64,000 nucleotides of DNA from an uncultured Dehalococcoidia bacterium. GTDB lineage: Bacteria > Chloroflexota > Dehalococcoidia > Lucifugimonadales > UBA3495. This document shows, piece by piece, positions 17,005 to 18,699 of the stretch. Under the pieces are notes generated by a model that searched no databases, was not told the DNA's origin, and saw nothing but the letters and a program-made list of their open reading frames with translations. The stretch covers positions 434,001 through 498,000 of the forward strand of contig CATOSP010000002.1 in the NCBI GenBank assembly GCA_951812625.1, written 5' to 3'. Position 1 is the stretch's first letter. Every line of letters begins with the position of its first letter. The translations under genes and the position numbers were made by a program.

Positions 17005-17388
17005 GGTTTGTCCTCCTGGACTCTGATCGGGTTCGGACTAAGACAAGTATACTCCGAATGTCGCTGTGCTCCCATATTCCTGGATTGCTATCGTCCGGCG
17101 AACCTGATATGATTGTTTGGTGCCACTTCACGAGTCATACGGAACGACGCATATATCTTCTGTTCCTGGTCGGATTGCGTATATGTAGGGAAGTAATTTA
17201 CCCGATAACGATCGAAGTACGACGGTAATCGTAATGGGGTTTGTGCCGAGGATGGGAGTGGAAAATCCGTCGACGAGCACGCCCCACACCCGGTGAAACA
17301 CTCGGATGTCCCAGCACTCCGCTCTCAACGAAGCCCATTGGGCGGAATGGCATAGGCGCCTTGGCCGCCTGCCGAAGGAGGACAGATC

Positions 17389-18219
17389 TTGGAAGGTGTA
17401 ACCGTACCGACACTCTCCGAAGCGCTCAGTCAGTTCATTACCTCCAAGAGAAGAAGCAAGAAAGTCCAGGAAGGTTATCATCAAGAAGTAGGGCGTTTCG
17501 TGGCCTGGTTCGGGCGGGACAGGAAGGTCGGTGACCTTTCGCCTTCAATGGTCGCGGAGTATGCACAGGTCATCAGCCAGGGTGGGTCTGACTCGGCCCA
17601 GCGTGTCAGTCCGGTAAAATTGTTCCTCACTTATCTCAAGGAAGAAGGTTGGGTCAGTGTGGGTCTGGCGACCCACCTGCGGGTCCCCAGAAACCGAAGG
17701 ACTGGCGCCCGCCGGTCCGACCGCTCCTCCAGTGACTCGGCGTCCCGTGCCGGGGTTACCCAGCTAAGCCAGGAGGGATACGATCGGCTGCTCGCGGATC
17801 TTGAATCGCTCAAGGAGGAACGGGTCAAGGTTGTCGACGACATCAAGTTGGCGATGGCAGACAAGGACTTCCGGGAGAATGCCCCTTTAGATGCGGCCAA
17901 GGAGCGCCAGGGATTCATCGAGTCGCAGATCAGAGGCCTGGAGGACAGCCTTGCCAAAGCCGAGGTGATCGATTCTACGTCGACTGTCCCGAGGCAGCGA
18001 GTGTCGGTCGGAGCCAAGATTACGCTGCAGGATGTGACCTCGGGTAGGAAGATGGTCTACACGCTGGTCGATGTGCGGGAAGCCGACGTGGCTTCGGGGA
18101 AATTATCGAATGTCTCTCCAATCGGTCAAGCGATCCTGGACCGAAGCGTGGGGGACGAAGTTACGGTCAACGTCCCCCGCGGGCAGGTCCAGTACCTGAT
18201 TCAGGAGATCTTGAACTAG
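17389..18219 (+). CDS. GreA-family transcript cleavage factor with N-terminal tyrosine-recombinase core-binding (SAM-like) domain
   Basis: aa ~7-103 integrase SAM-like (TLSEALSQFITSKRRSKKVQEGYHQEVGRFVAWFGRDRKV...VKLFLTYLKEEGWV..ATHLRVPR); aa ~122-276 GreA (LSQEGYDRLLADLESLKEE...DFRENAPLDAAKERQGFIESQIRGLEDSLAKAEVI...VGDEVTVNVPRGQVQYLIQEI); SD ggagga before TTG start. Confidence 0.88.
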   Translation: MEGVTVPTLSEALSQFITSKRRSKKVQEGYHQEVGRFVAWFGRDRKVGDLSPSMVAEYAQVISQGGSDSAQRVSPVKLFLTYLKEEGWVSVGLATHLRVPRNRRTGARRSDRSSSDSASRAGVTQLSQEGYDRLLADLESLKEERVKVVDDIKLAMADKDFRENAPLDAAKERQGFIESQIRGLEDSLAKAEVIDSTSTVPRQRVSVGAKITLQDVTSGRKMVYTLVDVREADVASGKLSNVSPIGQAILDRSVGDEVTVNVPRGQVQYLIQEILN

Positions 18220-18234
18220 GACCAGCCTTTCCGG

Positions 18235-18699
18235 CTAGCCGATCGTTGCAAGCGCGGCCAGAATGTTCTCAGGGTCGGGCAGTACCCCCGGCTCATAGGT
18301 CTCCCGGAACCGGACTACCCCCTCTTTGTCCACTATGATGACGGCGCGGTTGCCGCCGCCCCGTTCCTCGTTGTACAGTTCGTAGGCCTGGGTGGCTGCA
18401 CCCTTGGGATGGAAGTCTGAAAGCTCGGGATATGGCAGACCCCCCATAGCCGTGGTCCAGGCGCGGTGAGCGGGAACGGTATCGCAGCTGATGCCCAAGA
18501 CCTGGGCATTCTGCTCCTCAAACCGGCTGTAATACTGCCGGAAGAGGGTGGCTTGAGTCGTTCAACCAGAGGTGAAGTCGAACACGTGGAAGGAAAGCAC
18601 CACGCTCTTTTCGCCTTTGTACTGGCTTAGCGTGATGTCGCCCTCGCTGACCGATGGCAACTTAAAATCCGGGGCAACGTCGCCGACTTGTGCAGACAT
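18235..18699 (-). CDS. selenoprotein peroxiredoxin (BCP/AhpC-TSA-like) with UGA-encoded Sec at the peroxidatic position
   Basis: Continuous frame ATG 18699 to stop 18235 apart from UGA at 18562-18564: MSAQVGDVAPDFKLPSVSEGDITLSQYKGEKSVVLSFHVFDFTSGUTTQATLFRQYYSRFEEQNAQVLGISCDTVPAHRAWTT...; ORF track shows only 18235-18498. Confidence 0.92.
18517..18557 (-). promoter_or_regulatory. candidate bacterial SECIS element (peroxiredoxin)
   Basis: 25 nt 3' of UGA to apical loop: CTCAA..CCGGC-AGTATTACA-GCCGG-T-TTGAG, G in loop position 2. Confidence 0.55.

Follow-up and report, generated by a model that had tools for sequence, protein, structure and literature searches.

A class-wide fusion of GreA to a tyrosine-recombinase core-binding domain in Dehalococcoidia

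Organization of the fusion gene

The window, which is the whole 64,000-nucleotide stretch of DNA from an uncultured Dehalococcoidia bacterium that was analyzed, carries a gene in which a tyrosine-recombinase core-binding (CB) domain is joined by a linker to GreA. The features of the gene are listed in Table 1. A scan for promoters and terminators returned a single weak promoter-like site, on the plus strand at 17085-17113, which is a weak lead at most. No conserved operon partner was found, as the neighbors vary between groups of relatives; a gene resembling RsmG (16S rRNA methyltransferase, judged by eye) is located upstream on the opposite strand at about 40 loci, including L066.

Table 1. 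Features of the fusion gene in the window.
Feature	Position	Strand	Basis
Fusion gene, 276 aa, CB domain, linker and GreA	17389..18219	+	ORF, domain matches, model, full-length relatives
Ribosome-binding site AAGGAGGA	17375..17382	+	6 nt before TTG start; sequence
Tyrosine-recombinase core-binding (CB, SAM-like) domain, residues 8-98, five helices in model	17410..17682	+	hhalign, PDB profile search, Foldseek, AlphaFold2, genome profile search
Disordered basic Ser/Arg-rich linker, residues 99-123	17683..17757	+	pLDDT, net charge, dN/dS in relatives
GreA coiled-coil domain, residues 124-193	17758..17967	+	PF03449 E 7e-19; model helices 128-157 and 165-190
Coiled-coil tip DKDFREN, residues 158-164	17860..17880	+	alignment to 1grj; acids same in 110/110 rows
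GreA C-terminal globular domain, residues 202-274	17992..18210	+	PF01272 E 2e-23

The convergent neighbor at 18235-18699 on the minus strand encodes a peroxiredoxin (AhpC-TSA) with an in-frame TGA at 18562-18564. This codon falls at the place of the peroxidatic cysteine (FDFTSG[TGA]TTQATLF) and is common to 21 of 21 related SAR202-type loci. The genome of the window has a SelB match above the cut-off and a tRNA-Sec candidate of 68 bits, and the product is probably a selenocysteine peroxiredoxin.

The N-terminal domain derives from a recombinase

The preliminary description of this DNA, made by reading the sequence, proposed that the N-terminus of the protein is the SAM-like domain of integrases. 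With the window sequence alone, matches of recombinase models to the N-terminal ~104 residues are weak: Phage_int_SAM_4 gives an E-value of 0.015-0.16, below its cut-off, and the XerC model TIGR02224 gives 5e-4 over residues 1-124. Therefore, a profile was needed to test the proposal, and one was assembled from 30 N-terminal domains of relatives and compared with the CB domains of XerC/D-type recombinases of the same class, leaving out the mis-cut alignment row L162. Over 99 columns, hhalign aligned the two with 97.2% probability (E 3.5e-11, score 63), compared with a score of at most 15 for two reversed and 20 column-shuffled controls. In the PDB, the profile matched best to a phage-integrase N-terminal domain (3nrw, E 2.4e-5). 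Likewise, a Foldseek search with the modeled domain gave 17 of 19 top structures that are named integrase or recombinase, including XerD (1a0p) and lambda Int, at probabilities of 0.54-1.00 (most 0.9 or more) and E-values of 0.05-0.9, such values being expected because the domain is small and helical. Finally, a profile search of 151 Chloroflexota genomes placed the fusions first (E down to 1e-34), followed by a second tier at ~1e-10 to 1e-3. The 12 open reading frames inspected in this tier all encode tyrosine recombinases or recombinase-like proteins, and two have degenerate catalytic motifs. These searches agree that the N-terminus is a recombinase CB domain and its identity is settled; the profile searches, failure of which had been named as grounds for giving up the assignment, succeeded.

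No recombinase catalytic domain (R...HxxR...Y) was matched in the fusion protein, as the preliminary description had also noted, and GreA follows the CB domain instead. Two motifs that are conserved in XerC/D CB domains, TxRNY and SIARK, are lost in the profile alignment of the fusions, although position 72, which aligns to the K of SIARK, and position 77 are still basic.

An AlphaFold2 model of the full protein (mean pLDDT 87.7, pTM 0.44) has N-domain helices at residues 9-20, 28-41, 52-63, 69-86 and 93-96, followed by a linker that is disordered at 103-120 (pLDDT below 50) and that joins the base, not the tip, of the GreA coiled coil. The CB and GreA domains show no defined packing in the model. 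In 12 close SAR202-type homologs, the CB domain has a median dN/dS of 0.053, close to the 0.040 of GreA and well below the 0.53 of the linker, and hence it is under strong purifying selection, nearly as strong as that on GreA.

The GreA domain retains both catalytic acids

Residues 125-274 match GreA_GreB_N (E 7e-19) and GreA_GreB (E 2e-23), both above the cut-offs, and alignment to Escherichia coli GreA (1grj) puts D160 and E163 at the positions of its catalytic D41 and E44. This bears out the earlier view that the GreA is complete with both tip acids. Residues D158, D160, E163 and N164 are invariant in 110 of 110 aligned fusion rows, a set in which a few sequences, including that of the window gene, occur more than once. 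The curated greA models, however, score below their cut-offs (TIGR01462 132.4 vs 139; NF001263 136.6 vs 145; NF001261 141.8 vs 167), and outside the two acids the tip differs from that of classical GreA (DKDFRENAPL vs GDLKENAEY). The GreA of the fusion thus belongs to a divergent subfamily and is not a standard GreA, and the difference at the tip could mean that its activity is altered.

Translation start and expression

A protein of this arrangement raises the question of whether the N-terminus is an annotation artefact, with translation beginning at GreA. Some start codon is present inside the linker in 70 of 109 relatives, and a modified lysine in one relative is numbered as if the annotation began at an internal methionine. 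Specifically, GreA of Dehalococcoides mccartyi CBDB1 (cbdbA743) is reported to be acetylated at K17, at a higher level in stationary phase (PMC7918482). In Dehalococcoides-like loci, K17 does not fit the start of the fusion and instead fits a count from internal Met116, corresponding to K132 of the fusion open reading frame. If this assignment is right, the protein is expressed and the annotated start misses the CB domain. The acetylation cannot be taken as proof that the CB domain is produced, since K17 fits the internal methionine and not the fusion start. Against an artefact, the stretch of the window gene between residues 92 and 153 is free of in-frame start codons, leaving GreA-only translation without a start codon in the linker; a sequence resembling a ribosome-binding site precedes the CB start in 91 of 109 homologs, but a linker start codon in just 11 of 109; and the CB domain has the low dN/dS given above. 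On these three grounds we reject an internal start, which is scarcely credible, and accept the N-terminus as real, as was originally supposed.

Distribution and origin of the fusion

The survey covered Chloroflexota, phages, plasmids and viral contigs, along with a single pattern scan of genome_contigs. The pattern scan located relatives encoded at 80 loci, the titles of which are all Chloroflexota or a group or species within it. In the phylum sample, the fusion is present in 36 of 38 genomes of the class to which the window belongs, and is found also in several other families of Chloroflexota. The fusion is ancient and class-wide, both of which escaped the preliminary description. A mobile or phage origin was considered and rejected, because phage and plasmid matches span GreA alone and the viral contigs contain no relative.

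In a tree of GreA domains, 95 fusions are split from 28 short paralogs by a 100/100 branch. The tree was then enlarged with unfused GreA from other classes and with L178-L181, four fusions whose tip is of the classical GDLxENA form. In the enlarged tree, a 100/97 branch has every fused GreA domain on one side, and the short paralogs cluster with the unfused GreA from other classes; its root is not independently fixed and its bootstrap values are not fully settled. The tree is compatible with one fusion event, and this would be its simplest reading.

A separate arrangement was seen at six loci of Chloroflexota family f41 (L172, L174, L176, L177, L186, L187), where a GreA with a classical tip follows a different in-frame conserved region of about 210 residues (GVYVVEL...VLYAGATD.SIGGR). 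This region is GIY-YIG-like by eye and had no match in Pfam or the PDB, and these loci are possibly a second kind of Gre fusion.

In a survey with PF01272, a short and a long gre gene were found together in most genomes of the class. The long gene alone is present in three single-contig Dehalococcoides-like genomes (about 1.4-1.5 Mb) and several others; several of the genomes with the fusion as sole Gre are near-complete.

The short paralog has lost the active site

Whether the genome of the window also has an ordinary greA was raised at the outset. A second gre gene is indeed present (L002, G000:C1:478232-478696), but it reads GGTVNN where E. coli GreA has GDLKEN and so lacks both catalytic acids; a classical catalytic second GreA is thereby rejected for this genome. 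The same is true across the class, where both acids are kept in 0 of 47 distinct short paralogs, the commonest pairs at the two positions being G/N, S/N and G/D. In 19 further loci, chosen to avoid sampling close relatives alone, the short copies with a readable tip are likewise without the acid pair, and the three of these loci that do have it (L220, L233 and L234) are fusions, L220 being ended by the end of its contig. Acid-less short proteins of this kind, L002 and others in the class, are candidates for non-cleaving, Gfh1-like competitors for the secondary channel.

As the second gre gene in the genome of the window has neither catalytic acid left, a point that the preliminary description missed, the transcript-cleavage factor of this lineage is probably the fusion, which would be the main such factor rather than an extra, specialized one. 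Given that the short copies are without the acid pair and the fusions have it in 110 of 110 rows, the fusion is probably also the only cleavage-competent Gre in most of the class.

Possible roles of the core-binding domain

In the Gre family, the coiled coil occupies the secondary channel of RNA polymerase with the tip acids at the active site (PMC4598747). We propose that the fusion is a chromosomal, vertically inherited GreA paralog whose N-terminal extension would be a domesticated tyrosine-recombinase CB domain. Its coiled coil is expected inside the secondary channel with the acids at the polymerase active site, whereas the CB domain, on a flexible linker of ~20 residues, would stay outside the channel because the linker departs from the base of the coiled coil. 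From there it could reach nearby DNA or the polymerase surface. In the clade of the window, the CB domain most likely binds nearby DNA with little sequence specificity, a contact that may keep the factor close to transcribing polymerases, and the short acid-less paralog would naturally compete for the channel. The cleavage activity, the binding of DNA and the purpose of the tether are all features that we infer from sequence, and we hold the chances to be evenly balanced that the protein is a GreA cleavage factor with a domesticated CB domain that binds nearby DNA in this manner.

In the 83 rows of the window's type, a basic residue is found at position 72 in 79, at positions 77 and 98 in all 83, and at position 101 in 82. 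For the window protein, net charge is +4 in the CB domain and +5 over linker residues 99-122, the former within the range of -1 to +12 seen for the XerC/D CB domains used for comparison. However, one nested clade of fusions, defined by a 100/99 branch, has CB domains with a net charge of -2 to -16 and mostly Gly-rich GGARGG linkers (L052, L054, L055, L057-L064, L066-L068, L070-L082). Given these charges, DNA binding cannot be family-wide, and the CB domain of this acidic clade may have another function. The description of the protein as DNA-tethered thus survives in part, being plausible for the clade of the window, with its near-invariant basic residues and basic linker.

The acidic domains bring in a serious rival, in which the CB domain, rather than binding DNA, has become a protein-docking module for RNA polymerase, another elongation factor or the ribosome, while GreA still cleaves. 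The acidic CB domains share the core residues F37, G42, Y58, F79, L80 and L93 with the others, and the loss of TxRNY and SIARK fits docking as well, but the almost invariant basic residues and the basic linker in the window's type do not, and on balance we consider docking unlikely, if well worth keeping in mind. Weighing these residues and the linker against the acidic clade, DNA tethering leads for the window's type. Another alternative is that the CB domain is autoinhibitory or regulatory, folding on GreA or the polymerase and restricting the channel until a signal or modification frees it. The stationary-phase rise in acetylation in strain CBDB1 would suit such a switch, the acetylated residue probably being K132 at the start of the coiled coil, yet the model has no defined interdomain packing (pTM 0.44, disordered linker), and we regard autoinhibition as improbable.

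Recombinase CB domains take part in site recognition. The preliminary description went further in suggesting that the protein is possibly site-specific, its stronger reading being that the CB domain steers cleavage to specific DNA sites. Against this, the fusions have not conserved TxRNY and SIARK, there is no sign of a recognition site, and a Gre that is class-wide and often the sole one better suits a general factor. This reading is very improbable, and the suggestion of site specificity is not supported, leaving contact with nearby DNA at little specificity as the reading that we prefer for the window's clade.

Implications and relationship to known Gre proteins

Gre factors are commonly regarded as small, stand-alone proteins. 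For the class as a whole we tentatively suggest, with somewhat less than even confidence, that transcript cleavage has moved to a DNA-tethered GreA with a domesticated recombinase domain, and that the ancestral GreA has become a non-catalytic competitor for the secondary channel or has been lost. If this is true, backtracked polymerase in the class would be rescued by a factor in contact with DNA, and such coupling is found in no other Gre system known to us. A group that includes the SAR202 marine bacteria and, judging by sequence, Dehalococcoides appears to depend on a Gre with a recombinase-derived module. This provides a case in which the core transcription machinery has taken up a DNA-binding domain from a recombinase, and the fusion-bearing class offers a natural experiment on how tethering affects a secondary-channel factor. 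There is also a warning for annotation, since the short gene, which is likely to be named greA, is without the catalytic acids and the name would pick the wrong cleavage factor. No description of a Gre joined to an integrase or SAM-like domain came up in a literature search that covered few subscription papers.

Like E. coli GreA (1grj; TIGR01462, NF001261, NF001263), the fusion has a coiled coil, a C-terminal domain and both catalytic tip acids, but it differs in the added CB domain and linker and in the tip sequence. With the CB domains of XerC/XerD and the integrases (PF02899, PF13495; 3nrw, 1a0p) it shares the fold and profile homology, but it has neither a catalytic domain nor the two CB motifs and is joined to GreA. 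Long proteins that end in a GreA domain are already known as models, namely NCBIfam PRK06330 and PRK14720 (718 and 906 positions, respectively); these match the fusion in the GreA part alone and their N-terminal parts are unmatched. Lastly, Gfh1 is a Thermus Gre paralog that inhibits RNA polymerase, and as a second Gre within one genome it is comparable to the short paralog described here. Acidic tip residues are retained in Gfh1, which lacks a CB domain, whereas the fusion has the D..E pair of the cleavage type and the short paralog has neither acid.
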